A stretch of 64,000 bases of DNA from Aquiluna sp. Its GTDB lineage: Bacteria > Actinomycetota > Actinomycetes > Actinomycetales > Microbacteriaceae. Below the pieces are notes generated by a model. That model worked only from the letters and a program-made list of their open reading frames with translations, ran no database searches and was not told the origin of the DNA. The translations under genes and the position numbers were made by a program. Numbering within the stretch: position 1 is the first letter of the stretch; each line of letters begins with the position of its first letter. Shown here piece after piece: positions 29,405 to 57,522 of this stretch. The DNA lies in the NCBI GenBank assembly GCA_018402685.1, contig JAGYIJ010000002.1, forward strand, positions 682,001 through 746,000, written 5' to 3'.

Positions 29405-30232
29405 ATGGATAGCGCACTGATTCTCGCGTTCTCCGTCACGCTGTTCGCCGGCCTTGCCACCGGCATTGGTTCCACCATTGCCTTTTTCACCAAGACCACC
29501 AACAAGAGCTTCTTTGCGCTTTCGATGGGGTTCTCGGCCGGTGTGATGATCTACCTGTCATTTGCAGAGATTCTCCCCAAGGCCACCGAATACATCGGCG
29601 AATCCACTACGGAGATTCAAGCTGCCGCTTTAGCAGCCGGAGCACTGATCGCTGGCATGGTGCTAATGGCCGTCATTGACGCTCTGGTGCCATCGGGAGC
29701 CAACCCACATGAAAACACCCAGGTCGAGCTTCTAGGCTCCTCACAAACCCCCATAGAGGGCATTGGCGTTGAGAAGGAAAGACTTCTCAAGATGGGTGTC
29801 TTTCTAGCCCTGGCAATTGCCATCCACAACTTCCCAGAGGGCCTGGCGACCTTCCTTTTGGTGCTAGATGACCCTGAGATTGGCATTGCCTTGGCAGTAG
29901 CGGTCGCTATGCACAACATCCCCGAGGGCATTGCGGTCTCGGTCCCCGTTTATTACGCCACCAAGTCCAAAGGCAAGGCCTTCAGGCTCAGCTTCCTATC
30001 TGGTCTTGCTGAGCCTGCAGGCGCCGTGATTGGTTATTTGATCCTGGCCCCATTCTTGAGTGACTTCGTGCTCGGAGTTATCTTTGCCGGGGTTGCCGGT
30101 GTGATGGTGTTCTTGGCAATTGACACCCTGCTCCCAACCGCTAAGAACTCAGCCCGCGGTCACCTGACGGTTTATGGCTTCATGCTCGGCATGAGCGTTA
30201 TGGCGCTCTCGCTAGTATTGCTTTCGCTCTAG
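29405..30232 (+). CDS. zupT: ZIP family metal transporter ZupT
   Basis: 275 residues, eight helices. The two ZIP metal motifs are present: H-N-F-P-E-G in helix 4 and H-N-I-P-E-G in helix 5, with E-P in G-L-A-E-P-A-G of the next helix. Length and wording match ZupT. It imports divalent metals (Zn, Fe, Mn and others). The nrd terminator lies upstream, so it is probably a separate unit. Proximity to a class Ib reductase that needs Mn or Fe may still be meaningful (inference). The stop overlaps the stop of the convergent giant gene by four bases. Confidence 0.93.
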   Translation: MDSALILAFSVTLFAGLATGIGSTIAFFTKTTNKSFFALSMGFSAGVMIYLSFAEILPKATEYIGESTTEIQAAALAAGALIAGMVLMAVIDALVPSGANPHENTQVELLGSSQTPIEGIGVEKERLLKMGVFLALAIAIHNFPEGLATFLLVLDDPEIGIALAVAVAMHNIPEGIAVSVPVYYATKSKGKAFRLSFLSGLAEPAGAVIGYLILAPFLSDFVLGVIFAGVAGVMVFLAIDTLLPTAKNSARGHLTVYGFMLGMSVMALSLVLLSL

Positions 30233-33200
30233 AGCATTCCCGTGAACTGAACCAGTAGCAAGAACACGACAAAACCAAAGAGCCTGTAGGCCCAGCGCCA
30301 CTGTGGCTTGAGGAAGAATCGCTCCTCACCCTCATTACCTTCACGGCCCAGAATTCCAAGCACCGAGATCGTCAGGATCAGACCCAGCAGCGCGAAGACA
30401 AAGATCGTAGAGAAGTTCGGGTGATCACCAAATAGCGAGCTGAGAGCCCCCTCCAGGACGATCTCTAGGCCAAGCACCATTGCTAGTCCTGGCAAGCCAA
30501 CTGGCAGCACTCTCCAGAGAGCAGGGAAATTTGGCAGCTTGTCGGTGAAGTAGCCCAAAAGCGTCGGCACCATGAACAGTGCAGCGGCAATCCAGACCAC
30601 AACACCAAAGCCCATGAAGGCGCTGGCGATAAAGACATAGAAGAAGTAGCGCAGGATCTGCACCGTGATGACCTGGCCCATAGGTGGTGCTGGCAACGTG
30701 TCAGGAGCAAGCTTGTCCATGCGCTGCGGGAAGAGCCTTCCCGTGATGTCCTCAAGAACGATCCTGATCGCAATGGCAACCGTCGCAATGAATTGGAAGG
30801 CTTCCACGTAGTTGGCCGCTGGCACAGTCAGACCAGTCAGTGCTGGCAGGGCTCTAACTATCAGACCTGCAACCCAACCACCCATTAGCGATGCGAAGGC
30901 GATGTCACCAATTCGAGAGATAAGGCCATCCAGGTCGTTCGAGACTCTCCTGCGGAAGTTCCTAATCGACCTGGCAAGCACGATTGGTCCAAAGCCAGCA
31001 ACCACGATGCCGGCGAGCATTCGCCAGTCCTCAATGCGCGCGAAGTCCACCAACGGCAGGGACAGCAGCACGTAGATAAAGACTGCAATAGAACCTGCGA
31101 AGGCATCGAAGATACCTAATACCGCAATCGCCATAAACAACAGCACTGGTGGGTGCAGAAGCATTCCAGCATTGGAATTTATCGATGTAACAGCCAGCAA
31201 CACTCCAATAACAATGGTTAGAACCGAGAGCGGACCAAACATCGCCCTGAGGTAGACACCATCGTTGATCAACTTCGAGACCAGCGGTGAGAACCTGGCA
31301 ACCTTACGAGTAGCCCAACGGGTAGGCCTATCTAGCGCCGTCATCAGCGCTAATCCAAAGAGACCTAATCGATCACCCGGACCGGGCGGAGCACCCGAGA
31401 AAACATCGAGGTCGTATTCAGCCGATGCCATCGCATCGAGAACGTCTTCGTTCATCTCCGCACCGGTCATGCCACCCGAAGCTCCGGCAGCTCCCGCAGC
31501 ACCTGCTGCACCAGATGCTGCGGCGGCGGCACTTGCGGCTCCGGCTGCTGCCGCTGCCGCGGCCGCTGCTGCAGCAGCTCCGATTGCTCCGGCCACTGCA
31601 ATCAGTGCACCGGTTGCTGCCAAGAGGTTGTTGGTTGCCTGAACCGCCTCAGGCGAACCAAGTGGATCAAACTCAACAATGACACTGTCATCTCCAGAGG
31701 CACCAATGCCCGCGTTTGGCTGAGGTTGGCCAATGTCAATGCCAAGAGCGTTTGCAAGTCCACCAATTGCACCAATCAAGCCCTCAACAATTGCTCCTGC
31801 AGGCCCTGGAACAGCACTATCGAAGATGCCCGAACCGGGGTCACTTGGTGGAGCGGCAATTGGTGGAGCAGGTTCAGAAGTCTGAGACGGTGTTGGGGTT
31901 GGAGTCGGGGTCGGTGTCTCTGTGACTTCTGGCTCAACCGTTGGCTCCTCTGAAGGAGTCGGGGTTGGTGTGGCAGAAGGCTTTGGTGTCACACTTGGCT
32001 TTGGTGTAGCCGATGGCTTAGGTGTTGGTTTTGGAGTTGGCTTTACAGTCTCTTCAGGCAGCACTGGAACGACCGGCTTCGGAATGAATGGGTAGGTAGG
32101 CGTTCCAGAGTCCAAGGTCACCGGTGGTGGCGGTGGCGGAGTTGGGTCTTCTGGTGTCACAACAATCACGCTTGCAGCTGGGCTGAAGCCGATTGAGTTA
32201 CGGGCCTTGACCTCGATCGTGTAGGTGGTCTCCCAGTCCCAGCTCAAGAACAGCGCGTTCGCTGCAATTGGCGAGACGGTCAGCGCAACTCCATTTACAA
32301 AGACTGTGTAGTCAATGATTGAGGAGCCTCCGTCAAATGTGCTGCCAGACCAAGCAATGAAGATGTCATCGCCCTGGATTTGGGCCGAGGCAGTGACAGG
32401 TGCCGTCGGTGCAGTGAGCAGCTGCTGCTGCAACATAGCCGTGTTTAGCAAATTAGAGGTAGAGGAGGTGTCCGTTACGGTCACAATCATGAACTCGTAG
32501 TTTGAACCAAGATCTGCCATGGCGGTTGGAGCAGGCTGATTGACCTGCTGGGCTTGGTTCATTGTGATTGGGAGAGCAAATCTAAACAGTGGCTGCAGTG
32601 GCTGCGGCTCACTAGCAGCCTGGAAGCTGAACGCAAAGCTGAAGACCTGCATGGGGCTCGGTGCTCCAAACGAGGCGGACTCAGCAAGAATCTCGTTGCT
32701 CTCGGTGGACTCTGGTTCTGGCTCTGGCTCAGGTGCTGGAGGTAGCAAGCTCAGCGGTACCGCAGAGCTTGTGGCGCTAAAGCTCGAGATGCTTGGGAGC
32801 TGGGTGTATTCACTGGTTCCAACCGCCCTAACAAAGAGGTCGAACTCCTGGAACTCGCCATCGATAGCGATTGGAGTGTCCCACTCGAGCGTTGCGGTTG
32901 CATCGTCAGAAATGGCCCTCAGACTCTGTGGAGCAGCGAAGTTGGCCGCTGGCGTGATTGGTGCCGAGGCATCTGAGATTTGGCCGGTGCCGTAGGCGGT
33001 GACGGCCGCCACGGTGACGATGTATTCCTCTCCGTTGGTTAGACCATCAATTTCACAACTGACCTGGCCCTGCGGAGTGACAATTGGACTTCCAGAGGAA
33101 TCAAATTGTGGGGTGTCATCAAGAGGAATACATGCGTAGCTCGTGACCTTGGCACTTGTTGAGACATTCGTCACGACTGTCTCATAAGCGGTGATGGTAG

Positions 33201-36200
33201 ATCCGCCTCGGAACGACGGCTCACGGAAGGACAGCAGAATCGACTCGTTGGCACCCGCCACCGAGGTGATAAATGGCTTTCCGGCAGGCTTTGGCAAAAT
33301 CTCAAAGCGCTGCTTCACGATAGGAGCTTCGCGATAGAAGCGGTTTCCAGCCTGGGTTGCCCAAACTTCACAGGTTCCGGCTTTACCCAGAGTGACCAGT
33401 CCAGCTGACGACACCGAACAGATTGCGCTGTCGAAGTTTTGAGGCTGAGAGAACGAAACATTCAATTCAGCGTTCGAGGTTGCGGTGAGGTTGAAGTTTG
33501 GGTCACCAAAGTCAACGTTGGCAAGTGCTTCAAAAGTGATGGTCTGGTTTAGCTTGTCGACCTCAATAACCTGGCTGATGCTAGGCGCCTCGAGGAAGTT
33601 GTCATCTCCTGCCTGCGTGGCAACCAGCACACAGCGACCAGGACCAACAAATGTGACCTTGGTTCCAGATGCGGTACAGGCGGAAACAATTGGCGATCCC
33701 GAGGAATCAAGTTCGGTGGCGATGCTGATGTTCACAGCCAGCTCACTTGAGGCAACAGCGGTTGGCTCGTACTCGTAATCCTCAACCTCAGCACCAGGCG
33801 AACCAAATGCCTTTGGCGTCTTCGGCATGATCGAAGTGAAGCGAATGAATTGCCTTGCCTTCACAACCGAGAAGCTCTGTGTGAGAGATTCGTTGGTTAG
33901 ATAGTTGAGAGATGCGGACTTGATGGCCTTGATGTCACAACTTCCCGCAGCTTTACCCTGCACGAATGGCAGACCATCGACAGTTACAACTTCGCAGTTG
34001 GTGCCTCCGCTGACAACCTCGAAACTGACCTGGCCGGTGCCGTTGCCGCCAGCCGCAAAGAGCCTTTGAGTTTCACCGAACACAACAACGGGGTTCGCGA
34101 CCATCGAAACGGTGGCTTGCTCGGTTGGCATCACAGCGATGTCCAAGTAGTTGGTAATCGGGTTGTAGTCCGAGTCGCCAAGCTTTGTGACGATCACCCG
34201 ACAGGCGGCCACTTCAATACCGCTGACAAGTTGAACGCTTCCGGGGAAGACCGCATTTCCAACCATCACACAGGGCTGAGTGTTGTTGCCAGCGGCAAGT
34301 AGGGCTGGCGAATTGGTGATCTGGTAGACAATTTGAGAGCCGGAAACGGTGCCGCCTTCAAACTCAAGCCAAACTGGCTCACCAAACTCCTTGTTCACCC
34401 TAAAGAAGTCCGGCAGGTTACTCTCCGCACTGGATGAGACCGCGAAGGAGTCTGTGACTCTGGAGATCAATAGCGCTTGGTCCGCCTTCGCGATGCTCAA
34501 GGTGGTTTGAGCGTTGGTGGTCAACCAGGAACCACGAGTCTCACCAGCTACTTCAACATTGGCCAGCTGCTGCGAAACATTCACAATGCAGTTACCGGCT
34601 CCCTCTATGGTCACCTCGCCGGAGCTTTGATCCACGCTGCAGACTCCAAGTGAGGTTGGTGAGGTTGTAAAGCTCAGCACCCCATCACTCTCGGAAGTAA
34701 CTGTGACGCTCACGGTCGCACTCATTGAGAACACGGTGTTCTCATAGCTAATTGCCAATTGCGGGGTGAGGTTTACAAACAACCCGCCACCTGAGACCAC
34801 TGGCAAGCCGGGAGCTTGATACGAGACCGTGTAGCTCTCAGATGGGATACCAATCAGAGCCACACCAGAGAAGTTGGCAATACCGTTGACGAACGTCGCG
34901 GTTGAGCTTCCAGTGATGGCACCTTCAGCACCGCCGGTCACGGAGATGGCTGCCGCAAGACCTGTGGTCGTGGTGGCCAAGTTGCCATCCTGGTCATAGA
35001 GGCTGAGCTGTGGCTGTCCGGCGGCAACCTGGCCAGATGGCTGCCTGGTGGTCAGGTTGTTGTCAATCTGCATGTAGGCAGCAGGTCCTGGAGCCAATTC
35101 AAACGGCAGCGATGTGACTTGGGAAATCGAAGAGCTCACAAGAGCTACTGGTGACGATGATGCGTCTCCTTGGACATAGAAGGCGAACTCTTCCAGCGAC
35201 GCCTCTCGGAAGGTCAAGCTGTACCCAAACTCAAGATCACCCTGAACGGCAAGGTTGGTGAAGCTCACGACACCATTGCTAGCAACCGCGACAACCTGAC
35301 CCGAGAGAGTTCCGTTGCCATTGAGGACCGCAATCACCCTGGTCGAAGAGTCGTTGGTAACCACGTTGCTATAGGTGTCATAGAGAGTCAATTGCGGCTG
35401 GGTTGACAGTCTCGCCCTGGTGGGGGCAGCAATTTCGTTTGAAACGCTGACGACATTTGTAGTGACGACCATGGTGCGGGCAATATCGGGGTTCAGGCTA
35501 AACAATCCAGTGTCCGCGGTCAGCGAGGAATCAGCGGTGTTTGTGATTCGTAGTTGGAAGTTATCGGTCGTTAGACCAGCAACCCCAACGCCATCAAACT
35601 GAACTCTCGGACCACCCGCGACGGTGGCAACATATGGACTCGTCGTGACAATCAACTCTGGCAGGTCGGCATTAGCACCAACCGGGTAAATGGTGGAGCC
35701 TTGAATCAAGCTCAGCTCAAACACAAGATCTTCAGTCAAGGTTGCAGGGTTTCCGGCCTGATCTCGAATCTCAATGATTGCTGGAGCGGCAAGCTCCTGG
35801 CCGGTAATTCCGCCGACAGGCTCCTGCACCACGACAATCTGAGCTGGTGCTCCGGCCAAGACTCTGAAGGCCGGGGACGTCACGGGAGCGACCCCGGAAA
35901 CGCTCGGTGTCACCGTCATGAAGTAATCGACTCCCGGGGATCCCAGCATGCTAATACTCGTGAAGTCAAGAACACCGTTGGCAAAGGTGGGCATCACAAC
36001 TTCGGTGGTTACCGATGGCGAAATTGCAATCTCTGCAGAATTGCCCTGAACGCTATCGGCAAGGTTGCCGTATTGGTCTACCAGCTTCAAAGATGGCTGC
36101 TGGCTGGCTGGGAAATTCTCTCCTACTGAAACCAGCAGAGGAGATTGTGAGAACACCAGGCTGGTTGGAGCACCGTGGTTCAGGCTAATGACCTGAGAAT

Positions 36201-39200
36201 CAGTCGAAATCAGTCCGAGGTTCGGAGCCACAAACTGCAAACGGTAGTCAACTCCAACCAAGCCACCAACGACGTAGTCAGAGAACGTCACCACACCCGA
36301 GCTGAAGGTCAAAGTAGTGGTTGCACCGTTTGGTGGAACAATCACTCCACCACGGCCAACATTTGGATCATTGGCATCTACCTTGACACGAAGCTCGACC
36401 TCTGAGCTTGAGTCAGTGGTGATGATGTTTCTAAACCTGTCTCGAAGGTGGAGTTCATAAGAACCAAAGGCGGTCTCTCCAGCAGTCAGGTTCGGATTAC
36501 CTTGCGAGGAAATGAAGATCTCCGTTGGATTTGCAGCCGATAGAACAAAGCCAAGGCTCTGGTTGCTATCTGCAAAGCCCGAGGCCTGGAATCTCAAGTT
36601 GTAGGTGTGGCCAGGAACACCAATTACACCGAGGTCGGCAAAGGTTGCAACACCATTGACATCGGTGACTGCCTCTGGAGTGCTCAGAGGAGGTTCAACA
36701 ACTGCAGCACTCTCGGTCCAGTTACCAACCGCCTCTGCCGCGTAAATAGCCTTCTCGATGACACCGGATCCAACCATGCTCTCTAGCTCCGCCGAAATAG
36801 TGATGTCGCCCACTGGCACTCGGTTACCAAAGCGGTCACGAATCTCGACCACTGGCTGTGGCGTGAAGGCTGCACCGGTTTGAGTTCCAGAAACCGCAGG
36901 CTGAGTGACAATCGCAATTCGGTCAGCCTGGCCAAATGTCAGTGTCACATCGTGAGTGGTTGATAGCACAGTGGTTCCGAAGGCAACGCGGTAGGTAATC
37001 GTGTAGTTACCCACTCGACCCTCAAGCTTCACCCCTGGTGTCGCACTTCCACCAGCGAGGATCGCGTCAGAGTTGCTGATGGATACCACACCTCCACCAG
37101 AGGCAAACGCAGTAATGGTTCCGGTCTGGTTGGTAATCGGGTTGCCAGAGAAGTCGGTAACCGTCAGGGTCACTGGTTGGAACTCCAATCCAGCAGCAGC
37201 GGATGTGGCCAGGGAGCTAACGCTCAGCTGACTTGGTGCTGCTGGCGAGAGAGTCACAGCTCCAGACTCAGTGCTGATGCCGCCAGAGGTAAAGGTGATC
37301 TGATAGTCCTCGGAAACCAGTCCACTCAGCCTTAGATTCTGGAACGAGACCTGACCACTCACCGCTTGAGCGGAGAGCGAGCCTGCGAGCGAGCCGCTAG
37401 CTCCAGCGGTGAGTGTGGCACTCACGACTGTGTTGGAGTCATCAGAGATGTTGTTGCCGAACTTGTCAACGAACTGAATTCTCGGGAACTCAACTCCCGC
37501 AGTCTTTCCGCTAACCAGTTCACCATTCACAGCACCGAGCGGTTCTGAGATAAAGCTGAAGCCACCAAGTGGTCCTGGAAGAACTCGGAACTCATTGGTC
37601 TCGGTGGAAACCAAGCCAGAGGCTGAGATCACCATGGAGTAGCTGTGCTCAAGGACACCCTTGAACCTCAGGTTGGCAAACGTTGCCTCACCATTGACCG
37701 CTGTCGCCTGAAGGTTCGAGATGTTGGTCTCTGGGTCAAAACCATTGGCCGAAATCATTGCACCGTTGAGACCAGCGTCATCGGTGCCTACAGAAGCTTC
37801 TAGGACCGTGGTGTTATCCCAAAGAACAACATTGCCATCCTGGTCCAGAACCTGAACTACCGGCTGGTCCACAAAAGACGTTCCCGCACGAACAGTCTCA
37901 GAAACGCTGTTCTTCATCGCGAGTGAGTGCGGGTTACCCGGCTGCAAGCTAATCAGCTGAGTGGTGATCAGATCAGCTGAACCGTTGTTATAGGTGAAGG
38001 TCAATAGGTAGTTAGCCAAATCACCATAGAGCGCAACACCGGAGAAGGTTGCAATACCATCAACCACAGTCGCCGAAGGTGAAACGCTAAAGCTGACCGA
38101 AGCAACTCCTGAGGCAGTCAAGGTCACGGTTCCAGAAGCACTCAGAGCCAGGTTGCCGAAGGCATCGCGCACCTCAATGCTTGGCTGAGTCTCAAACGCA
38201 AGCCTGCTCTTTGCGGTCGCAGCCTGCTGCACGATAGCAATCTGTGAAGGGGCGGCGTGAACAACGGTCACCGAGAAGGTGCTGGTAACAGCAGTCAGAG
38301 CATTGCCACCCCAAACAGCTGATACCTCAACCTCGTAGTCACCAGGTCTTGCAACCATCACATAGTTGGAGAAGGTTGCAAGGCCGTTGACCGAGGTTGC
38401 CGTTCCACCAGACTGACGCTGGAACTCAGCTCCAGAGACTGCAGAAACGGAAAGACTTAGATCAACTGAAGAGTCAGTGATGGTCTCGTTGCCAAAGGCG
38501 TCAAGAATTCGAACCGAGAACTCTTCATAGATTGAGCCAACAACATAGGAGTCGGTGCTTGGGTCAACAATCAGCTCAAACTTGGTTGGGTCGCCGTGAA
38601 CCAAAGGAGTTGTTGAAGTTGAATCAACTTCTCCGACTACAGGTGCGGAGTTGTTTCCTGCAACCTCAGTCACCTTTGCACGCAGGGTGTAGTCAGCAAC
38701 AGCTGCAGAGAAGGTGACGCCGGTGAAGGAAACGACACCGTTCGAGGCAACAAACTCAGAGGTTGAAGCAGCAACCTGGTTGCTGCCGTCAACCAGCTCT
38801 AGGACCACCTTGCTGGAGTTATCAACCGTCACTCGGTTGCCGTCAGCATCAACCAGCTCTGCCACAGGAACAGGACCGAAGGTCTTTCCAACCTGAATTC
38901 TGGTTGGTGCTGAAGTCAGCAACCTAACTGTCTCAGGGTCACCAGCTAGAAGCTGAATGGTCTCCGATGTCACCAAGGTCTGGCCATTGCTATTGACGGT
39001 GGTGTATTTCAAAACATAGGAACCAACAGGACCGTTTAGCTGAAGGTTTGCACCAGTGAAGTCAGCGACACCGCCAACTGCCTCGACGGTAACCGTTGAA
39101 GACAGTGACGGAAGCGGGCCAGAACCACCCGTGACATGCTCGATGGTCACTGTGACACTCAGCGTTGAATTTGGACCCGAGGTAATCAGGCTGCCTTCGG

Positions 39201-49200: not shown

Positions 49201-52200
49201 TTCCGCTCGCCTTTGCCCGGATGCCTGCAGAAGCAGTTGGCGTATTCATTGCCAGCGACTTCAGGTCACCATCGATATAGATGTTGGATCCGTAGAGCTC
49301 AATAGATCCATCGGCCACAAGGTTTGGTCTTGTGTAAAGCTCCGCACTTGCAGTGGTGCTGTCCTTACCAAACCTGATGTTCGCAGGCACAACCTTGCCG
49401 TAGGTGGCGTAGTGGTTGAAGGTGGTGGTGAAGTTTTGCCCCTGAGGCTCCATAACAACATCGCCTGTGGTGCGGATTGTCAGCACATTATTGAAACCAT
49501 AGTGGATTACCTGGTCACCAACGACCTTGATGTCTGCTGTTGAGTTTTGAACATCAGAACCGTCACACAACGAAAGACCAAAGTTTGGAAGATCGTTAGT
49601 AACACAGGAGCCAAGAGCGACATGACCAAGGTTTGAATATCTACCCGAGAACCTGACTCCACGCTGGTTACCATCGATCGTGATGTCGCCCTCTTTAGAC
49701 AAAATCGCTGTTCCGTTAATCTCAACACCGAGGAAGCCACCGGTTCCCACCTTGGTGCCATCAATGTTGATACCACCTTGACCACTGGCCTCAATCAAGA
49801 TGCGGCGATCCTGGCCACCGGTTCTCCAGGTGTAGGCGTGGAACCCGATGAGGATTGCCTCTTCCGAGCGGTCTGCAATCACTGCCTCAATGTTGATGGC
49901 AGGAGATGCGGTGGCCGATGACAGGATCGCAATCCTGCTGGCCTGGTTGGCTCCAATCTCAATACCCCTAGCTCTGCTACTAGCCACCGGCGTGCTCGCC
50001 TGAATGTCGATTTGTCCGGCACCGGCCGCAATGGTCTTGTGACCCTGAACCAAAAGGCCGGTCACGGAGTTGACGTGAGAACCGCCATACATGCGGATGT
50101 CTCCACCACCGGAATACATGATGCCCGAGGTGCCACTTGTACCAAAGCGAACACCTGGATTGCTGCTAGTTCTAGTCCTCGCGAATCCGTAGGGACCGAT
50201 GTCATCATTTGCGCTTCCAGAGGCCATGACAATGTTTCCACCGCCGGTTGCGGTGCGGTAGCCGGGAATCAGAGTCTGAAGCTGAGCCTGGCTAATGTTG
50301 TCAACCTGCAAAATTGCAATATCAGGTGCCATTGCCGAGACCAGCTGGACTCCGTCGGCAACATATATGAAGGAGTGCTCGGCATCATTGTTGTTGTTGT
50401 TTGAACGCAAGATGATGTCACCGTTGTTGGTGAAGAGGCCGCCTCGAGACCAGTCATGAAGATAAAGCTCTCTAGAGGCCTTCAGCTCGATGTCGGCGCC
50501 ATCCGCCAAAGTTCGAAGCGTGCCATAGATCTGGATGTACCCACCACGAATGTTGAATGGACCCTGGCCGTAGGCCTCACCATAGAACCTTGTGGGCTGA
50601 GCGGGTGCGTTGTCCTTTGCAATGTCAAGAGTGCCAATGCCATACATTCTTGAATAGACGAAGGGCATTGACCGGAACTCATTGGATATCGGCATGATCG
50701 AGACATCACCGGTGGTGTGCAGAATCATGCGGTTATTGCTTGCAGAGTAAATTCTGTCGGTCTCAATAGTGATGTCGGCCGAGGATGTCCTGATTGTTGT
50801 GCCGACCGTTGCATTGCTCGGTGCGTAGCTCTGCTCGTCAACAGTGGTTGCTGGAGCGGCACCGAGCATGGCGCCAGGCCCGTAAGAACCGTTGTAATAG
50901 AAGAAGATGCCATCGTTATTGGCACTTGTTCTGAGGTCAATTGGACCGTTTTGCGACAGAAGCGCAGTGCCGTTGAGAGCCATAGCTACGCTTGTGCCAG
51001 TGGTCCTCGATGCATAGAGACTTATTCCACCCTGGCCACGAGCCTCAAGGACTATGTCGGTGTGAAGCTGGGCATTCAAGCCCGTGTAAATAGCCTGGCT
51101 ACTCCCGTTGTGTTGGACTTCACCGCTGATGCTGATCGCGGGTGAGGAGGTGTTGTTAGAACCACCTGCTGCGTAAAGGTAGAGCTTGGCTGAAGATGCG
51201 CCATTCAGAAGGACGCCGTGATTACTTGAAGTGCGGCCAATGCCATCGATAGAGATGGTTCCGTCTCCAGCATCGATCAGTCCACCGTAAATGGAGACAC
51301 CGTGAGAGTTGTTCCAGTATCCCGATCCTCTACCACGCATGATGATGTCACCACCACCGGTGTGAATCTTTGTGGCGTTGCTCGCATGCACCATTGCTCT
51401 GCAATAAGTTGACGCCGTGGATATTTTGGGAATAGGCCTCGGCTAGACCATTCGGGAATCCATTCTCATCGAAGGAATTTGCGGCTGCGAAGATGACGTG
51501 ACCGCGATTGTTGTTGTAATCGGGATCGTCAGTCAAACCATTCGCGGTGTTGATCTTGACGCCAGAGGCGATGTAAACATCGCCGTTATGACCAAGGGCA
51601 TCTGTTCCATCCGCGTGCGGACCAAAGATTATGTTTCCACCATTTGTCGTGAAACTCTTTCCACCGTTTGTGAGCACTCGATCCTCTGCGTAAACACGAA
51701 TGTCGTTGTTCTCGCCAGTCACCCGGAGGTTTCCATATAAATAAGCTGTGTACTCAGCGCTAACGCTGACCCCGCCGGATGCGGAGATTGTCTGATAAAG
51801 AAGTACGCTTCCGCCATAGACCTCTAATGGGCCATTGACATCAAAGGTTCGGTTCAGTTCAATGCGGCGAATACCGTTGTTTCCAAGGCCATCTCCACTG
51901 CCTGCGATGAAGCGACCAATACGGACCTTACTTGGGGTGTTGACATCATTGCCAATAACGGTTGTCGTGCGAGGGAAGTAAATGCTTGCTGTGAAATCCG
52001 AGTTTGAACCCGGGTCAGCGATCAGCTCACCGTTTGTGAAGAAGTTTGAATAGTCTTCAGCTGCGAAGTAGGCACCGTGCAGGTTAATGTTTGCACTGGA
52101 TGAGGTAATCGGCGAATTCGGCATTGAGCCGAAGTAGCTGCCGCGAGATGAGGCCCCATTGAAGTAGATGGACTTGTTGCCTGCATCGAGGGTGATGTCA

Positions 52201-55200
52201 CCAGTCTCGGCAAGGAAGTTTCCTCTCGCCATAATCGAATGAGCGTAAATGCGCTGCGTGACATCAATGTCGATACCACCCTTGCCCCAGATGTTTGGCA
52301 TGCGGTTCAAAGCAATGGCCCTCGCAGATTGACTGTAAGAATTGCCACCGTTGCGATCAATGCTGTCTTGATCGGTGCGGGTATCCATTGCGGCACCCTC
52401 GTCGATGTAGAGGCCCCACCAAGAACCGGTCGAGTCATTGTTGACGTGCATGCGAATAGCTGGGTTCTGAGTGGACTCTGAGATCAAGAAAGATCCCATC
52501 GCCGCGCCTCCAAGCCAGTTGAGACGAATACCCATTCCACGCTGATTACCGAAGGTGGTTCCAGAGAAGTCAATTACTCCGGTGCCGGAGTGAATTCGAT
52601 TGCCCGCATATCCGAGGATTCCATAGCGGCTGTTCTGGTTTGTCGAGCCTCGAACAACGATGTCTCCACCCTCGGAAAGGACTCTGACCTGATCGCGTAT
52701 CTGAGAAGTTCCAAAGCGAACACCATCGTTGAAGGTTCCGTTGAAGGCAACCGCATAGCCACCCGGCACCTCAACCTCACCCGAGGTAGTTGCAGCACCA
52801 CCAGCTATGAAAATATCTCCGCCGTTTGACTTCAGCTCGGTGTAGTTCGGGATAAGGATCGTGCCCTGGTTGTTGTCGTTGCTATTTGCCCACAGAACTA
52901 GGTTGCCGTTGCTAGACCAAAGCTCTCGATAGTTATTCCAGGCACCTCCGGTGGTGACGATGTTTCTTGCCGCCTTGACCACTAGCGAAGAGGTGGCACC
53001 TGCAAGCTTGATGTCCTGACGAAGGAATGTGTCGCGTCCTGCATCAAGCGTTAGTGAACCAGCCTGTGGGCTGGAAGAAATTGCAACCTCCATGGTTATG
53101 TCACCGGTGCTCGTTGCCAGCTTGACTTCAAGTCCCTCTTCGATCTTCTCCATGACATCGCTGACCCTAAGAACGGCATTCGGAACTGAGGGGTCGGTAT
53201 AGAAGTCACCGCGGACCCATGTGCCCGGGGTTGAAACCACGGCGGTCGCATCAGAAACCACGCGTAGGGTCTCTGGTCGCGGCATCACCGCAACTGACTG
53301 ATAGACCTTTAGTAGGTCTCCGGACTCAAAAACAATTTGAGTCGGTCTGGTGGTGTCGGTGAAGAGATTCTCACCTGAGAAGTCGGCGACTCCGTTGACG
53401 GCATTCACCGTGGCCGAAACCAAAACCGTGGAGGAGCCGCTCATAACCTTGGCAGTCACAGCATTCGTAGCACTCGTGACAGTGTTGCCGGCAGCATCAA
53501 CAATTTTGATGATGGGCTGAATCGCAAATGGTGCCTGGTTGCCACCCTCAATGACATCAGAGGCAGGTCGAACAATTGCAAGAGAGTGCGCAGTGGCTAC
53601 GCTCGCGTAGCGCAGCAAAACAGCACCGCTTCCACCGACTCCACCGTTGGCACAGCCCGCTTCACCGCCACCACCACCGCCACCGGTGCCAGCCTGGCCA
53701 TTGCGACCCCACGCCGTTGGTTAGGTAAGCACCTGCACCACCGCCGCCAACGCCACCGATGCCGTTGAGCTTGCGTAAACCTTGCCAGCCTCCGCCACCA
53801 CCACCGCCGCCAAAGAAGCGCTCGTCTCCGGTGAAGTTAGTCGAGTAACCATTAGAACCATTGGCACCATTGGCTGGGTTTGCGGCAAGCCCTCCGGCTC
53901 CACCTGCTGAGCCACCAGCTCCGGCTGCTCCGCCCGAACCGCCAGAGCCAACCTTGCCGCCAGATCCTGAACAGACATTGTTGGCCCAGTAGCTTTGACC
54001 ACCGATACCCGCAGCGGCATTAAGGATTACTGTTCCTGATTCGTTCTCAACTGTTGTTGGGAAGCCGTTCTGACCGTCTCGCAATGTGCTGTTCAGATTG
54101 ACACCACCGGCACCACCGGCACCAACCGTGATTTTGATCTGGCCGTTCACGGCAGAGCGGTTTGTGCTCAGCGCAGCCGAGCCACCACCGCCACCGCCGC
54201 CACCGACGTTGTTACCGCCACCGCCACCGCCACCGACGGCGTAGAGCTCAAAGTTTCCAACACCCGCTGGAATGTCGAATTCACACTCCGCACCGCCCAA
54301 GAACTCGTGGATGGTGTACTCGGTTCCAGAGATGGTCTTGGTGTAGGTGATTGGAGCACACTTACCAGCTTCAGCATTGAAGGTTGCAAACTGACCTGAG
54401 GTCGCAGGCTGAAGAATTAGGCGTTCTAGGTTGGCAGAGTAATTGCCACGGTTCGTTCCAGCACTCCATCCACTGTTGAGGTTCCCGCCGCTTGTGTGCC
54501 AACAAAGCCTGAGATCAGTGTTCGTGGTCTGAACATCACAACTTCTGCGGTCTAGCGCATCGCCACCTTTAGCAAAGCCCATCGAGCGAGTTCCGCTGTA
54601 ATACCACTGAGATCCATTGGCCAAGTTACGAGGATTCACGAGGTTTGCTGTGTCCTCCAGCACCTCTGAACGAGGTGCTGCTGCTAAAACTCTGAGGTTG
54701 GCAGTGCCAACATCTCTACCCGCAAGCATCAGGTATTCACCCGTGCAGTTCTCCCAAATCCCTGCTAGCGAAACACCGCTTTGGTTATAGGTTCCCTGGT
54801 AGCAAACCTCCCAGCCACCAGCAAGTACCGTTGCCAGTGGGATGTTGGTTTGAGGACCCTCTGGGTAGTAGAGAGGGGCTGCAGCTGTGCCATCTGAGGT
54901 TGGCACAACGAAGCTGACGGCAATCACACCGGAGCCACCCCAGCCACCGGGTTGTGAGCTGTACCAGGAAGAAATACAGCCCGAGCCGCCACCGCCACCG
55001 CCACCGCCGCCGCCGGAACCCGAGTTCGCAGCTGCGTTACCAATAGCAGGGGTTGCACCAAACTGCGTTGTTCCAAATGCCTTACAACCCTTGGCTGATC
55101 CACCGGCGGCGTAGAAGTTCAGAGTTCGAGTGTCAGCCGCATAGGCTCCTGGGCCACCAGCGCCACCCTTGCCAGCATCAGTGCCCGAGTTTGTTGCGGT

Positions 55201-56526
55201 TCCACCAAGTCCTAAAACTCCACCACCGCCGCCGCCAGCTCTCTGAGCTGCATTTGCGGTCGGCGGAGCATCACCTCCAGCAAATCCTTTGCCTGAAATG
55301 CCGGCAGCTCCAGTTTGGTAGAGAGCGCCACCGCCTCCAGATGCACCCGTCGTTGCCAGGCTTTCGGTGCCACTGCCACCGCCGTTTCCACCTGCACCAC
55401 CAAAGGTTGCCTCAAGTGAGCCAAACTCTGTGGCCTGTCCCACCGTTGATGGATAGGTGATGCGGTCCCCAGAGTTTCTTCCAGCACGACCACCCTGGCC
55501 AACAGCAACCTGGAGGGTCTGACCAGGAATAACACTGAAGTTTTGCTGTCTGAGGACTTCAGCACCGCCACCGCCACCCCCGGCATAGCCGGTTGAGCCG
55601 CCACCGCCACCGCCACCGCCACCGCCGACGAGGAAGGCCTCTACTGAGGTGACGCCGGAGGGAACCCGCCACCCGCCAAAGCGGGTGATGTAGGAGCGGG
55701 GGAAGACGTAGGTGGTTAGTCGGTTGTTGGCAGATGCTGGGTAAATCTCTTTGACGTCGGTTGGGTTTAGATCGCCATTGATCCTTAGGTGGCTATCTGC
55801 GGTGGCCCCTGGAGCGGTGTTCTGAACCCATCCTGACTCCAGGTCATTGAAGTCGTAGTAGGCCTGCAGCCCAGTGGTTGAGACTGGGCGGTTGTGCATG
55901 TCGGCAAGAATTTCAGACTGAGTCTTGGCTTTGCCCCAGATCCTGACCTCGTCAATTCGGCCTAGAAAGTTCTCAGTTGGGTTTGAGATGCGATTCTGGA
56001 TCGAGAGAGTTCCTCGCGCTGGCAAGGTTGCGATTCCTGCATAAGTCGCGGTATACACCTCCTGACCATCGACGTACAGCTTTAGGACACTCGAGTCCTT
56101 GACCCACGCCACGTGTTGCCACTCATTGAAACGCGCTGGGATGCCTGTGTTAATCCAGGTCCAGTTGTTTCCTGAGTTCCCCCAGATAGCCCAGTGGTGG
56201 GTGCCACCCCAAATGGCAAATGTGTAAGTGCTTCTTTTATCGATGTAGGCACCACCGCGGCCAGTTGGATAAATCCACTGTTCCCAAGTTGCATCTTGAG
56301 ACACCCGGTGAGCCGACACATCATCGCTCCACGCGTAGTTGGTGGCGCTAGTTGTGTTGGTGGAGTAGTCCACCGGCTCACCACCCGGAACCGCCACGGC
56401 TTGAGGCTCAGGCGTAAGGAGATTAGGGGTGGCGGCGGCGAACAAACCGATGAAGACAGCTACCGTGATACGACGAAGCCAAGCGCCGGTAGCGGCCCCT
56501 CGGATACGACTCATCAACGTGCGCAT
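30229..56526 (-). CDS. giant secreted, membrane-anchored multidomain surface protein (whole locus, reconstructed)
   Basis: Eight open frames in a row continue one another's domains exactly, so they are read as a single gene. The breaks lie near 53707, 51390, 48536, 47856, 45240, 45101, 44813 and 43297. Seven behave as single extra bases and one (48536) as a loss. Corrected, it encodes about 8,760 residues. Order: signal peptide, LamG, two Gly-rich modules, FHA-like beta-helix super-repeats, Ig-like repeats with an inserted Gly-rich module and second LamG, beta-sandwich and FN3 domains, Pro/Thr/Lys stalk, Ala-rich tract, about ten membrane helices. Start ATG 56526 has AGGAGG ten bases upstream. 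Likely role is adhesion, aggregation or predator defence (inference). The alternative, several separate proteins, is unlikely because only the first piece has a signal peptide and only the last a membrane anchor. Confidence 0.8.
30232..31374 (-). other. C-terminal polytopic membrane domain of the giant surface protein
   Basis: The last 381 residues hold about ten hydrophobic helices: for example LSVLTIVIGVLLAV, VLLFMAIAVLGIFDAFAG, MLAGIVVAGFGPIVL, GVVVWIAAALFMVPTLLG, GLPGLAMVLGLEIVLEG, FVFALLGLILTISVLG and LFGFVVFLLLVQFTG. Positively charged loops such as RSIRNFRRRV lie between them. No LPXTG motif or other cell-wall sorting signal is present. A multi-helix bundle at the end of a surface adhesin is unusual. 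It may anchor the protein or take part in its export. I recognise no named family. Confidence 0.8.
31450..31630 (-). repeat. Ala-rich tract of the giant protein
   Basis: A run of about thirteen consecutive alanines is followed by A-A-S-A-A-A-A-A-S-G-A-A-G-A-A-G-A-A-type sequence. On the DNA it is imperfect GCN repeats. It links the extracellular stalk to the membrane domain and could itself be the first membrane-spanning or a flexible helix. Confidence 0.7.
31830..32150 (-). repeat. Pro/Thr/Lys/Ser low-complexity stalk of the giant protein
   Basis: K-P-T-P-K-P-T-P-K-P-S-A-T-P-K-P-S and T-P-T-P-T-P-T-P units after a P-P-P-P-P-P block. This is a wall-spanning type of rod that would lift the Ig/FN3 region away from the membrane domain. 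It is typical of Gram-positive surface proteins. Confidence 0.8.
41780..42560 (-). repeat. Gly-rich module inside the Ig-like array of the giant protein
   Basis: Dense GGN codons encode a 250-residue stretch with V-S-L-L-V-V-A-G-G-G-G-G-G-G at the start and G-G-S-G-I-V-I-L-R-F at the end. The same entry and exit strands recur in all other Gly-rich modules of the window. These are probably the Gly-rich fold seen in secreted bacterial proteins. Confidence 0.75.
43277..45037 (-). CDS. giant surface protein, Ig-like repeat piece (frame g)
   Basis: Meaningful sequence begins near 44813 at L-N-D-N-G-N-I-V-S-T-T-Q-N-I and carries about five Ig-like repeats, each with D-A-F-N-N-P/D-A-Y-G-N-L/D-R-F-G-N-L turns. 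It ends at 43277, where one extra G before GCAACAGCAAC shifts the frame; the next piece resumes A-T-A-T-V-T-N-G-V-V-N-G. The first 70 or so codons of the open frame are noise. Confidence 0.75.
   Translation of the reverse strand: MRRLPRLARPLLSSQSCACWMLTAARFQPAQLSQRGLHRSAPSVRHRVLRSRAWQPSRALEHLVPLATTSSPTHLNDNGNIVSTTQNIEVIAGDAAKIQITEQPTTKQTGATFSSGPKVRLLDAFNNPVTISDNITVTATLVASNSAALSPVTQSSAVTFTNGIADLSGFDIVALPGSYRLVFEASNFAPVTSSVFVITVADPSILTWQTPPPSDLVTGINMPQSILEIHDAYGNLVTGDNSTEVIITSTAGSTLSRTVATAQNGVVTFNGFNMIAATGSHTLKFTASNSNVASINDVSISHAITISNDVAASLEVELVGLQTPKAGLPLTFDAGGYLKVNILDRFGNLVTTGDDRDLTIGVSSVAVGVAGSTTSSAVVGVADFSANGLKLEGTETSTGYNLIFSSTTTRGTTIIGRQSFTLSPGVASKLQLTTQPPVTISRTVPFAPGAVKIFDAFDNEVETSSNLVVQLWNGTTSKSEAVVAASNDAHTFEALTYNVAPSTGYQLRYFVQGYEDNAIFSRTFEITSGDAASLSFLVQPAGSATINAGIAPFSVEVLDADGYRVNTGESVTVTLNLKDSGNSNCH
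44772..45125 (-). CDS. giant surface protein, short Ig-like piece between two frame breaks
   Basis: One Ig-like repeat (D-T-F-E-I-T-P-G-A-I-A-S-L-D-L-V, then L-R-V-L-D-A-D-G-S-Q-V, ending G-N-Y-L-I-T-Y-T-L). It is joined upstream to a 45-codon piece in the third frame (A-S-G-G-Y-I-T-F-D-N-L-A-L, 45110-45240). Three breaks within 430 bp make this the most damaged stretch of the locus. Confidence 0.65.
   Translation of the reverse strand: MLLLLAALDGNSDTFEITPGAIASLDLVQIAQTAKAGEAFAQQPILRVLDADGSQVPTSATVSARVAQIGTFGATQSAAVEGLATFQSVGASGAIGNYLITYTLERQWQHREHHSEH
45050..47914 (-). CDS. giant surface protein, end of beta-helix and first Ig-like repeats (frame e)
   Basis: Meaningful from about 47856 (T-N-H-N-G-T-N-I-D-V-P-A-G-Y). 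Residues to about 46.4 kb continue the beta-helix, with short G-x-I-x-I/L-x-A rungs (ISSTNGNISIGGTLN, DVLVRADSIGLG, NITIESPLV). Then four or so Ig-like repeats follow (Q-I-S-L-I-D-A-Y-A-Q, SIIDAGGNTIKV, IELIDAYSNVVTS, KILDVYGNHVAGD). The tail after 45240 is out of frame. Confidence 0.8.
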   Translation of the reverse strand: MTLRSAPLPEHPSLLVVEQGRPTNHNGTNIDVPAGYAAGNTTVHGVRLLNASLNSGDSLMRIRGVSRANISYDGVNIAGSALTSTTGEIVVEGLAEQSGRRGVTIESGSNISSTNGNISIGGTLNAQSAYTALSVNGAEIKATNGELNLTSTNSADVDNAYTGIGLNDAKVLSETGEINLIANGSRIWTGGTSYLGTGPGESTSSANVTIRVDRLALDGNMRIAATGSLVIEPITQNYRGAGTLFFMDSTVQVFDFSNTRIGKTGTVATQTLTPTTIASLIRVNGPIELNAGSLTLTNTLESISESAQISINSVTGFTGNSDIVTNNGDVLVRADSIGLGASATINAGTGAVDLGSASSGTGIRILSATDKSSAATTTLNIATEDLDKVTAGKLRIGAANAGNITIESPLVRDQAGSNTLRLRTAGSVANTDGNNLSVSNLAVQAGGSIRLDSDYSSATPSLLALNSGNLSAGNVQFSQMSGDYTPAEVDGVTPVFGVAVSARASQVPVTEPTAVYQNAEVNPAPQISLIDAYAQTLNARNTLASNYQVQATASAQAQLSGVTVSSVAGGFAQFTGLRFLGAQGQYPVTFEVLSNGVLVDSVVTGDNYELISSQPSSLNINWSNRWGSAGGALFQTPTISIIDAGGNTIKVAPHDTATVSATITGPRGQILGGGQVAATGGVASFSNLVIAGSVGVNYTVEFSVVIQGSTESTTISAAVNNFQLQPGTPSSLRVAQQPSNIVAGISFSPEVSIELIDAYSNVVTSNNDFELRPVFVKADGTESISATITASAGVLAFEDLTGTNAGTFRIRFEDTSTSPLASVTSSQFVVSPATPHSLEWDVQPSDVVARAVMTSPRLKILDVYGNHVAGDSLTTARLRVIDSASAEATPNFANRYNQAGLWWLHHLRQPRSRSPCRYLPPRGNGSHLLGCCSCWQHWMATPTPLKSPLVQLLL
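47844..48497 (-). CDS. giant surface protein, beta-helix piece (frame d)
   Basis: 217 codons of beta-helix (S-V-T-Y-A-D-D-Y-V-I-E-S-I-N just upstream of the first ATG, then PVILWADGNSSGYGIVNIG and PIFIGGGAG). Frame is lost at a GGGG run at 47855-47858; three G instead of four restores the next piece. Upstream, the join to the previous piece near 48536 behaves as a lost base. Confidence 0.75.
   Translation of the reverse strand: MIESINADDDAIKIIGVTDGNREHGLFMPFGATFKNPNGGLKIQADEMFDSSWSSSYDNKFRFDIAGPIVLESNSASFTNNEEIGRKDYHLNFVSTPETFQYGKVTNRKLADLGEAPITAQRVIEIYAESIEPFNSSLPTNFLTVNQSDGHILLRANYNITLPDAKAIRSAGSPVILWADGNSSGYGIVNIGSDIDTTFSSSAGAPIFIGGGAGETY
48533..51394 (-). CDS. giant surface protein, central beta-helix piece (frame c)
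   Basis: 953 codons of FHA-like beta-helix covering about two super-repeats. Examples are TKIHTGGGDIIMRGRG, DIVLEARGQGGISL, TNNGDIILRSNNNN, SGGGDIRMYGGSHV, RILIEASGQGGINIDG, KEGDITIDGN and SSIVLWSNAGTN. Asn- and Gly-rich turns and almost no charged clusters are as expected for an extracellular solenoid. Joined upstream by removal of one base near 51390. Confidence 0.8.
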   Translation of the reverse strand: MVHASNATKIHTGGGDIIMRGRGSGYWNNSHGVSIYGGLIDAGDGTISIDGIGRTSSNHGVLLNGASSAKLYLYAAGGSNNTSSPAISISGEVQHNGSSQAIYTGLNAQLHTDIVLEARGQGGISLYASRTTGTSVAMALNGTALLSQNGPIDLRTSANNDGIFFYYNGSYGPGAMLGAAPATTVDEQSYAPSNATVGTTIRTSSADITIETDRIYSASNNRMILHTTGDVSIMPISNEFRSMPFVYSRMYGIGTLDIAKDNAPAQPTRFYGEAYGQGPFNIRGGYIQIYGTLRTLADGADIELKASRELYLHDWSRGGLFTNNGDIILRSNNNNNDAEHSFIYVADGVQLVSAMAPDIAILQVDNISQAQLQTLIPGYRTATGGGNIVMASGSANDDIGPYGFARTRTSSNPGVRFGTSGTSGIMYSGGGDIRMYGGSHVNSVTGLLVQGHKTIAAGAGQIDIQASTPVASSRARGIEIGANQASRIAILSSATASPAINIEAVIADRSEEAILIGFHAYTWRTGGQDRRILIEASGQGGINIDGTKVGTGGFLGVEINGTAILSKEGDITIDGNQRGVRFSGRYSNLGHVALGSCVTNDLPNFGLSLCDGSDVQNSTADIKVVGDQVIHYGFNNVLTIRTTGDVVMEPQGQNFTTTFNHYATYGKVVPANIRFGKDSTTASAELYTRPNLVADGSIELYGSNIYIDGDLKSLAMNTPTASAGIRAKASGSIFTDYVANSDTLRSNILTNGSSIVLWSNAGTNVGSIIIQDGTRICSATNFAAVSQGDAAFTSCNSTGGGDIHIAGGTSVASSDSSVLNATVPGGFAEGFGTYNYSGHVGSQTTGNGYLSGVHIGLRQQWINTTSIHSGGGDIVIRGQTTNNSSYPGSWYSLAYGVVAMGDSNTTNGTSGIFADGGKVLIHGECASPTNNVTCGGVGLNMYASNQVSVTSII
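51348..53618 (-). CDS. giant surface protein, Ig-like domain and start of beta-helix (frame b)
   Basis: The true reading starts near 53707 (R-N-G-Q-A-G-T-G-G, then G-A-V-L-L-R-Y-A-S-V). One Ig-like repeat follows (I-I-K-I-V-D-A-A-G-N-T-V-T, V-N-G-V-A-D-F). From about 53.2 kb the beta-helix begins (GSLTLDAGRDTFLRQDI, NLVLWANSND, EGGDIVVRGS, GKGGIDIDVTQRI). It ends out of frame at 51390. Confidence 0.8.
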   Translation of the reverse strand: MLRYASVATAHSLAIVRPASDVIEGGNQAPFAIQPIIKIVDAAGNTVTSATNAVTAKVMSGSSTVLVSATVNAVNGVADFSGENLFTDTTRPTQIVFESGDLLKVYQSVAVMPRPETLRVVSDATAVVSTPGTWVRGDFYTDPSVPNAVLRVSDVMEKIEEGLEVKLATSTGDITMEVAISSSPQAGSLTLDAGRDTFLRQDIKLAGATSSLVVKAARNIVTTGGAWNNYRELWSSNGNLVLWANSNDNNQGTILIPNYTELKSNGGDIFIAGGAATTSGEVEVPGGYAVAFNGTFNDGVRFGTSQIRDQVRVLSEGGDIVVRGSTNQNSRYGILGYAGNRIHSGTGVIDFSGTTFGNQRGMGIRLNWLGGAAMGSFLISESTQNPAIRMHVNNDSTGSWWGLYIDEGAAMDTRTDQDSIDRNGGNSYSQSARAIALNRMPNIWGKGGIDIDVTQRIYAHSIMARGNFLAETGDITLDAGNKSIYFNGASSRGSYFGSMPNSPITSSSANINLHGAYFAAEDYSNFFTNGELIADPGSNSDFTASIYFPRTTTVIGNDVNTPSKVRIGRFIAGSGDGLGNNGIRRIELNRTFDVNGPLEVYGGSVLLYQTISASGGVSVSAEYTAYLYGNLRVTGENNDIRVYAEDRVLTNGGKSFTTNGGNIIFGPHADGTDALGHNGDVYIASGVKINTANGLTDDPDYNNNRGHVIFAAANSFDENGFPNGLAEAYSQNIHGVNLLQSNGACEQRHKDSHRWW
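53600..55700 (-). repeat. two Gly-rich modules near the N-terminus of the giant protein
   Basis: Module 1 (about 54.88-55.70 kb) begins S-V-E-A-F-L-V-G-G-G-G-G-G and ends G-V-I-A-V-S-F-V. Module 2 (about 53.6-54.33 kb) begins G-N-F-E-L-Y-A-V-G-G-G-G-G and ends G-A-V-L-L-R-Y-A. A spacer with paired cysteines lies between them (residues C-T-G-E-Y, C-D-V, C-W-H-T). Codons are mostly GGN, giving CCNCCN-rich sequence on the plus strand. Confidence 0.8.
53662..56526 (-). CDS. giant surface protein, N-terminal piece: signal peptide, LamG, Gly-rich modules (frame a)
   Basis: Starts MRTLMSRIRGAATGAWLRR, a basic n-region, followed by ITVAVFIGLFAAA and a probable cleavage after A-V-A. This is a Sec signal peptide. 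Residues about 60-240 form a LamG/concanavalin-like domain (D-A-T-W-E-Q-W-I-Y-P, WQHVAWVKDSSVLKLYVDG, FLGRIDEVRIWGKAKT). Then come two Gly-rich modules. The longer open frame to 56559 is not used; AGGAGG lies ten bases before ATG 56526. The frame is lost at a GGGG run near 53707. Confidence 0.85.
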   Translation of the reverse strand: MRTLMSRIRGAATGAWLRRITVAVFIGLFAAATPNLLTPEPQAVAVPGGEPVDYSTNTTSATNYAWSDDVSAHRVSQDATWEQWIYPTGRGGAYIDKRSTYTFAIWGGTHHWAIWGNSGNNWTWINTGIPARFNEWQHVAWVKDSSVLKLYVDGQEVYTATYAGIATLPARGTLSIQNRISNPTENFLGRIDEVRIWGKAKTQSEILADMHNRPVSTTGLQAYYDFNDLESGWVQNTAPGATADSHLRINGDLNPTDVKEIYPASANNRLTTYVFPRSYITRFGGWRVPSGVTSVEAFLVGGGGGGGGGGSTGYAGGGGGGAEVLRQQNFSVIPGQTLQVAVGQGGRAGRNSGDRITYPSTVGQATEFGSLEATFGGAGGNGGGSGTESLATTGASGGGGALYQTGAAGISGKGFAGGDAPPTANAAQRAGGGGGGVLGLGGTATNSGTDAGKGGAGGPGAYAADTRTLNFYAAGGSAKGCKAFGTTQFGATPAIGNAAANSGSGGGGGGGGGGSGCISSWYSSQPGGWGGSGVIAVSFVVPTSDGTAAAPLYYPEGPQTNIPLATVLAGGWEVCYQGTYNQSGVSLAGIWENCTGEYLMLAGRDVGTANLRVLAAAPRSEVLEDTANLVNPRNLANGSQWYYSGTRSMGFAKGGDALDRRSCDVQTTNTDLRLCWHTSGGNLNSGWSAGTNRGNYSANLERLILQPATSGQFATFNAEAGKCAPITYTKTISGTEYTIHEFLGGAECEFDIPAGVGNFELYAVGGGGGGGNNVGGGGGGGGSAALSTNRSAVNGQIKITVGAGGAGGVNLNSTLRDGQNGFPTTVENESGTVILNAAAGIGGQSYWANNVCSGSGGKVGSGGSGGAAGAGGSAGGAGGLAANPANGANGSNGYSTNFTGDERFFGGGGGGGGWQGLRKLNGIGGVGGGGAGAYLTNGVGSQWPGWHRWRWWWR

Positions 56527-56673
56527 TGCGCAACTGCCTCCTACCCCGCAGGTGTGCACTCCGTTGGGGCTATATAAGACTATTTAGGAGTCCAGGACCG
56601 CCCATGAATAATGTGTGGTTTACCGAACATCTTGCGTTTGGGCCCAGAGAAAAGGCCTTATAGACCCTCAATC

Positions 56674-57428: not shown

Positions 57429-57479
57429 CTCTTGCTCCCAGGATTTGTTTTTGGATTTAGCCGTGCGACAAGTGTCACA

Positions 57480-57522
57480 AGAGAAAAGAAAAATCCCCTG
57501 CAAGAAAAGCCCTAGAGGGGAT
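57480..57522 (-). terminator. Rho-independent terminator of the second giant gene
   Basis: On the minus strand ATCCCCT (57522-57516) pairs with AGGGGAT (57499-57493) and is followed by TTTTTCTTTTCTC. It starts nine bases after the stop codon of the second giant gene, separating it from the TIG-protein gene. Confidence 0.88.

Follow-up and report, generated by a model that had tools for sequence, protein, structure and literature searches.

The window, a stretch of 64,000 nucleotides (C2:682001-746000 of the host genome), probably contains a single gene of about 26 kb that encodes a secreted, membrane-anchored fibre of about 8,760 residues. The one-gene reading, which agrees with the original prediction, draws on intact giants at the same locus in relatives, on the kept order of the pieces, and on a genome-wide frame-switch rate that is able to explain the breaks in the gene. 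The host genome is assembled into 3 contigs that total 1,480,071 bases (completeness 93%, contamination 4%), and the gene takes up about 1.8% of it, close to the 2 percent expected for a genome of about 1.5 Mb. This genome size, together with the origin of the two relatives that have a giant at the same locus (G009 and G010, both pond MAGs of the Microbacteriaceae), fits the proposed small-genome planktonic actinobacterium.

The gene is read through eight successive stop-to-stop frames on the minus strand: 53662-56583 (973 codons), 51348-53720 (790), 48533-51442 (969), 47844-48560 (238), 45050-47932 (960), 44772-45143 (123), 43277-45043 (588) and 30229-43305 (4,358). When these frames are joined, the product comes to about 8,760 residues, and the last 13 kb are a single frame. 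A hydrophobic segment lies directly after the ATG at 56526 and a block of hydrophobic segments ends the last frame; the sequence thus confirms a single signal at the N-terminus and a single multi-helix membrane domain at the C-terminus across the eight consecutive frames. The features of the gene and of its adjoining small gene are as follows:

56742-57503, minus strand: small TIG-domain protein, a homologue of which adjoins the giant in G009 and G010
30229-56526, minus strand: whole giant gene, ATG at 56526 and stop at 30229-30231, eight open frames with seven frame switches
56390-56526, minus strand: N-terminal signal peptide region, hydrophobic core at 56413-56469, presumed right edge
55909-56325, minus strand: LamG domain 1 (PF13385, E 1.5e-22)
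54913-55671, minus strand: Gly_rich_2 domain (PF21722), the better of two stretches in that frame
53256-53609, minus strand: first Ig-like repeat, by repeat HMM
46463-53162, minus strand: probable beta-solenoid region between Ig matches, approximate edges, modelled part 49571-51370
42751-46444, minus strand: Ig-like repeats, block 1, by repeat HMM, spanning frame switches
41758-42603, minus strand: Gly_rich_2 domain (Pfam, E 4.5e-13)
41122-41757, minus strand: two Ig-like repeats, by repeat HMM
40585-41079, minus strand: LamG domain 2 (PF13385, E 1.6e-22)
34750-40356, minus strand: Ig-like repeats, block 2, 16 matches to the repeat HMM
32965-33252, minus strand: fibronectin type III domain (Pfam), the better of two stretches
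31861-32040, minus strand: Pro/Thr/Ser-rich linker, presumed to span the wall
31648-31671, minus strand: FDPLGSPE element, directly before the first anchor helix
30232-31500, minus strand: C-terminal multi-helix membrane anchor, 423 aa, no Pfam family

Internal promoters combined with signal peptides, which had been named in advance as the mark of several independent genes, gained no support from the sequence. Promoter-like sites inside the gene were not above chance (6 versus 7.7). A hydropathy scan of the eight pieces (19-residue window, cut-off 1.6) marked segments at the N-terminal start, within the final 460 residues and at four places further inside (1.64 to 1.72); none of these four lies in the opening 500 residues of any of the pieces 2 to 8. 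The eight frames, and the separate secreted upstream neighbours with similar domains, could also be read as several adjacent surface genes. We consider this very improbable, since intact single-frame giants occupy the same locus, the starts of the inner pieces carry no signal, and the order of the pieces is kept.

To describe the domains, Pfam was searched with seven of the eight pieces (the 123-residue piece was left out), which gave LamG twice, Gly_rich_2 in three stretches, and fn3 in two. An Ig-like repeat HMM of 118 positions that was built in this analysis gave 31 matches in the window pieces, some of them halved at breaks, and the proposed number of about 30 repeats therefore holds. The same HMM gave 21 matches in the giant of G009, 27 in G010, 54 in G222 and 33 in G031, and zero matches in the three short anchor proteins tested. 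Nine of the Ig-like repeats were 21 to 30% identical to a tenth. In Pfam, Big_1 and Invasin_D3 were each matched by one of ten repeats (best E 0.0068), which is no clear match, and a comparison of a repeat with PDB profiles gained no name (best E 0.021). The fimbrial proteins TafC and PefA (NCBIfam) were rejected, as their scores of 17.7 bits against a cut-off of 410 and 16.5 against 227 are far below what is required. No RTX Pfam match, and thus no sign of RTX calcium repeats, was obtained in the seven giant pieces searched.

No Pfam family matched the region that separates the first Ig repeat from Ig block 1. An AlphaFold (AF2) model of 600 residues of this region, built from a 6-sequence alignment, consists of nearly all strands and has moderate confidence (pLDDT 69.7, pTM 0.79). 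Comparison of the model with PDB folds resulted in weak matches, with a best E of 0.0097 and none at E <= 0.001; the 50 PDB matches listed are, as we take them, mostly beta-solenoid enzymes, autotransporter passengers and phage tailspikes. The model suggests that the region is probably a beta-solenoid. Because no haemagglutination activity domain was found by Pfam at E <= 0.01 in five giant pieces (P0002-P0006), the initial label "FHA-like" was replaced by probable beta-solenoid. The rest of the proposed domain list (LamG, Gly-rich, about 30 Ig repeats, FN3 and membrane anchor) stands.

All five giants examined have a Pro/Thr/Ser linker ahead of the anchor. The pattern LPxT[GAS] does not occur in the last 700 residues of the giants of the window, G009, G010 and G031, and occurs once, as LPSTS, in that part of the G222 giant; the G010 giant has an LPKTG near residue 2,994, far from its C-terminal end. 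Sortase (PF04203) was detected in six of seven genomes searched, the host included, and was not found in G010, a carrier of an intact giant. Judged from its signal, Ig repeats and C-terminal membrane domain, the product qualifies as a putatively secreted, very long, repetitive and cell-anchored chain.

The last 423 residues, which form the anchor, were used as the probe for homologues. The anchor is present in 7 of 22 same-genus genomes and in 13 of 299 genomes of the family sample, the host included. In G009 and G010, which belong to the same genus, it lies at the same locus in stop-free frames of 7,098 and 8,169 codons, and the flanks agree with those in the window: a TIG-type protein on one side, and ZIP and three genes that we take to be nrdF, nrdE and nrdI on the other. 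The same anchor ends frames of 10,947 codons in G222 and 7,968 codons in G031, which belong to another genus, and the nrd neighbours were not seen beside these two giants. G031 is probably the type strain of Rhodoluna lacicola, MWH-Ta8T, and its genus (g11) is then Rhodoluna. Besides G009 and G010, a total of eight genomes have anchor-bearing frames, which range from 7,153 to 12,006 codons. In the Rhodoluna-genus sample, the anchor was found in 32 of 60 genomes, and in 9 of the 20 best (>=90% complete, <=5% contaminated); seven of its anchor frames are longer than 7,000 codons, the longest having 12,006. The stop-free anchor frames of 12,006 (G869:C8), 10,729 (G899:C174) and 10,947 codons (G222:C1) come from genomes of about 1.3 to 1.4 Mb.

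A segment from the end of the solenoid into the Ig block matched within a frame that has the anchor frame's length, contig and strand in 10 of 10 genomes, which had been picked because they contain a giant frame (7,098 to 12,006 codons). When the order of the pieces was shuffled, none of 300 orders reached the observed chain score for G009, G010 and G222 (best shuffled versus observed scores, 1244 vs 1277, 936 vs 946 and 1640 vs 1658), and 13 of 300 did so for G031; much of the score comes from the last piece, which keeps the margin small. No alignment chain takes in all eight pieces in any of the four giants compared, as two pieces are missing in G009, one in G010, two in G222 and three in G031, with the first piece among those missing in G222 and G031. 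Chance is excluded because colinear homologues exist in single open frames.

The anchor of the window giant is 58% identical to a paralogue in its own genome and 65% identical to that of a protein of 2,061 codons at another locus in G007. Its identity to the same-locus giants of G009 and G010 is only 36% and 35%. Either fast evolution of the giant or an exchange of C-terminal parts between loci would explain these identities. Because the anchor is nearer to the paralogue than to the same-locus giants, the comparison establishes the same place, not common descent of every part. A search for plasmid relatives gave no match. Between the giants of G009 and G010, dN/dS was 0.29, 0.17 and 0.32 in blocks of 3,563, 2,190 and 3,702 codons, with high synonymous change in the last two blocks and with the third overlapping the others as a repeat match.

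Compared with synonymous shuffles, runs of at least 5 equal bases are reduced in number in the giants of G009 (8 versus 22.9, z -3.7) and G010 (7 versus 21.5, z -3.5) and in the last frame of the window giant, 30232-43305 (11 versus 18.8, z -2.2). The deficit is unclear in the giants of G222 (z -1.0) and G031 (z -1.2). It could reflect selection against slippage in very long genes. Ordinary G009 genes are likewise low in such runs (z -3.3), and the deficit is therefore no proof of anything specific to the giant.

The frame switches were assessed by aligning G009 and G010 proteins to 130 kb of the host genome beside the giant, with queries whose best alignment was below 40% identity excluded from the counts. 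The G009 proteins covered 45 genes (44.6 kb) and gave 8 within-gene frame switches, 7 of them credible; a switch in nrdF was rejected as a false positive from an over-long query. The G010 proteins gave 3 frame switches in 24 genes (24.2 kb), and ten other 20-kb samples of the host gave 3 in 24 genes (16.4 kb). The control comparison of G009 with G010 resulted in 0 frame switches in 61.2 kb and 0 in 68.0 kb. At 7 per 44.6 kb, 4.1 switches are expected in 26.3 kb, and the Poisson probability of seven or more is 0.125; under the other rates it is 0.198 (all 8 kept), 0.049 (G010 estimate) and 0.212 (samples). The density of breaks in the giant gene exceeds the point estimate of the background rate. 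Because this rate fits seven switches in 26.3 kb, assembly errors can explain the breaks, and the controls indicate that the seven frame switches are most likely small assembly errors that are absent from the gene of the organism.

The seven G009 proteins that are broken in the host are type I topoisomerase (topA), DNA polymerase III delta' (holB), HrpA, methylmalonate-semialdehyde dehydrogenase, a TadA-type ATPase, one protein without an NCBIfam name, and glycerol kinase, whose match in the host is just 37 to 41% identical and may be another kinase. In the window, DUF6421 is split by frame, with model positions 3-101 in one frame and 100-436 in another. The frame-broken conserved genes of the window are located at 602-2693, 6877-10655 and 16118-18100; they are DUF6421 and HrpA, both tested, and a DUF255 thioredoxin-domain protein, of which the first frame was tested and the remainder judged by eye. 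Homopolymers were rejected as the cause of the breaks, as the break sites are not enriched in them and host runs are about as long as those of the relatives. A codon-usage frame scan was also tried as an error control and gave 38 switches in ten host samples versus 31 in nine samples of the relatives; it was dropped in favour of the homology test because it counts ordinary gene borders.

The seven frame switches, and the patchy presence of the anchor in the genus (7 of 22 genomes), could instead point to a pseudogene that is decaying in this strain. This is unlikely, as topA, holB and other genes are broken at a similar rate and the final 13 kb, 4,358 codons, form one frame. That the pieces are free of stops is no evidence against decay, because the pieces were cut at stops. 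Programmed frameshifting that leads to nested products would account for the frame changes and for nothing else, and it is hardly credible: the four giants compared are single frames without a same-strand switch in the codon-usage scan. We know of no gene with seven programmed frameshift sites. One intact gene in the organism remains the preferred reading.

The anchor itself is predicted to consist of roughly 9 to 10 helices in the cytoplasmic membrane, and its structure model is helical (pLDDT 74.9, pTM 0.74). An alignment of 17 copies has 18 invariant columns, including D57, R85, D132, R180, R183, R196, D199, R246, E250 and R260. Five Pfam families each matched one of the 17 members (best E 0.0042, Amj), none of them convincingly; PDB sequences gave no match (best E 0.51), and a Foldseek comparison of the fold gave no match at E <= 0.001 in the PDB and viral libraries. 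The pattern [FY]DP[LM]..P[EK] before the first helix is present in the giants of the window and G010 and absent from those of G009, G222 and G031; by eye, elements like FDPLGSPE are found in several short anchor proteins.

The anchor forms the C-terminal end of proteins of very different size, with ectodomains that range from about 110 residues (family f44) to more than 11,000 (Rhodoluna genus). In f44, a second family of the class, the anchor was matched by 21 of 101 genomes; the matching genomes are 1.3 to 2.0 Mb, and 7 of the 21 have only weak and partial matches (E 2e-5 to 7e-13). The frames that hold the near-complete f44 copies are 496 to 969 codons long. In the order sample, the host alone carries the anchor (1 of 297 genomes), and in the class sample 13 of 296 genomes do, a third family (f51) among them; both samples contain few Rhodoluna-type relatives. 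No partner gene is common to all 24 anchor loci, and the widest cluster of neighbours, ABC-type-like proteins, covers 6 loci. The neighbours of the second anchor protein of the host (anchor at C1:551542-552807, 58% identical), presumably xthA and pyrE-like genes, also lie beside shorter anchor proteins in G008 and G010. Three short anchor proteins (loci L034, L035 and L040) lie at most about 7 kb from a gene that resembles a CASTOR/POLLUX-type ion channel and is directly adjacent in L040. Because the charges (Asp, Arg, Glu) are invariant in 17 copies, we tentatively suggest, as somewhat less than an even chance, that the anchor is a shared surface platform of planktonic Actinobacteria that does more than hold the fibre, for example by exporting, tensioning or signalling for it.

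In the proposed architecture, the signal peptide would direct export across the membrane through Sec, and the C-terminal helices are predicted to arrest the chain and hold the fibre in the cytoplasmic membrane. The Pro/Thr/Ser linker would traverse the wall. The FN3 domain and the about 30 Ig-like repeats, whose presence is clear and whose fold is presumed, would form a long stalk or spacer, with the solenoid and the first LamG outermost as binding parts and the second LamG within the stalk. The reach of the chain may be roughly 150 to 250 nm, if an Ig domain is taken to add about 4 nm and a solenoid turn 0.5 nm. Glycans of algae, particles or other cells are the most likely targets of the solenoid, Gly-rich and LamG parts, which are mostly at the far end and would do the binding. 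We give about an even chance that binding, presumably for adhesion, is the main role of the fibre; adhesion to algal or particle glycans is the first choice and protection from grazers or phage the second.

The same single gene could also encode a fibre that mainly shields the cell from protist grazing or phage by its size and by surface crowding. This is a possible but less probable role, and it is compatible with binding, as both can hold together. The wide range of length among the relatives, 7,098 to 12,006 codons, is what a shield would permit, and SwmB of planktonic Synechococcus is reported to be involved in resistance to protistan predation (PMC9387257, PMC4949707). However, the two LamG domains and the probable solenoid point to ligand binding, and the anchor is absent from 28 of 60 Rhodoluna-genus genomes and from 11 of the 20 best.

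The upstream gene, from 57531 to about 65600 (into C2:740001-747778), encodes a distinct secreted protein that has a signal peptide of its own. It has LamG, Gly_rich_2, fn3 and a TIG-like domain and, by eye, no membrane anchor, and the gene has a frame break near 58200. In its last 75 residues the protein is similar to the end of the small TIG protein at 56742-57503.

Streamlined freshwater bacteria are generally assumed to lose DNA that they can do without, yet those examined here retain one surface gene of 21 to 36 kb, which makes up about 1.4 to 2.6% of the assembled genome. With the type strain of Rhodoluna lacicola as a probable cultured carrier (7,968 codons), a role in attachment, grazing or phage resistance is open to direct testing, and the shared anchor may serve as a marker for finding such a surface system in other actinobacteria. 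The expectation that the protein would be among the largest in bacteria was too strong: it is large, yet the longest bacterial proteins known are several times longer.

Across life, the number of proteins reported to be longer than 5,000 residues is more than 41,000 (PMC11573180). No description of the giant family or of its anchor was found among the matches listed in the literature, with bioRxiv and most subscription journals outside the scope of the search, and the word "giant" does not occur in the text searched of papers on Rhodoluna lacicola (PMC4156110), Pontimonas and Luna-1 (PMC12422013). SwmB of Synechococcus sp. WH8102 (10,791 aa), reported in swimming and in resistance to protistan predation (PMC9387257, PMC4949707), is likewise a giant surface protein and of similar length, and its host, too, is small, free-living and planktonic, but a cyanobacterium; the likeness noted is one of size and lifestyle, and the role of the giant described here is a proposed one. 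The giant adhesin of Mobiluncus mulieris (7,651 aa, 51 Ig-like domains; PMC10619420) is also actinobacterial and has an N-terminal head and a long Ig-like stalk; in contrast to its LPxTG attachment, the giant described here has a multi-helix membrane domain and no LPxTG in the last 700 residues. Giant1-5 of Apilactobacillus kunkeei are surface proteins of 3,000 to 8,000 aa that take up 6% of a 1.5 Mb genome, and Giant1-4 have a beta-solenoid near the N-terminus, but their repeats are alpha-helical, their C-terminus is SH3b-like and their host is a bee symbiont (PMC12863079). The ice adhesin MpAFP of Marinomonas primoryensis (1.5 MDa; PMC4083281) shares the long stalk of tandem Ig-like repeats; its about 120 repeats of 104 residues are identical, whereas the nine repeats compared here are 21 to 30% identical to a tenth. 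Giant surface proteins are a known kind, and the novelty of the present one lies in its composition, its host group and its anchor, which has no convincing match to Pfam, PDB sequences or PDB folds.
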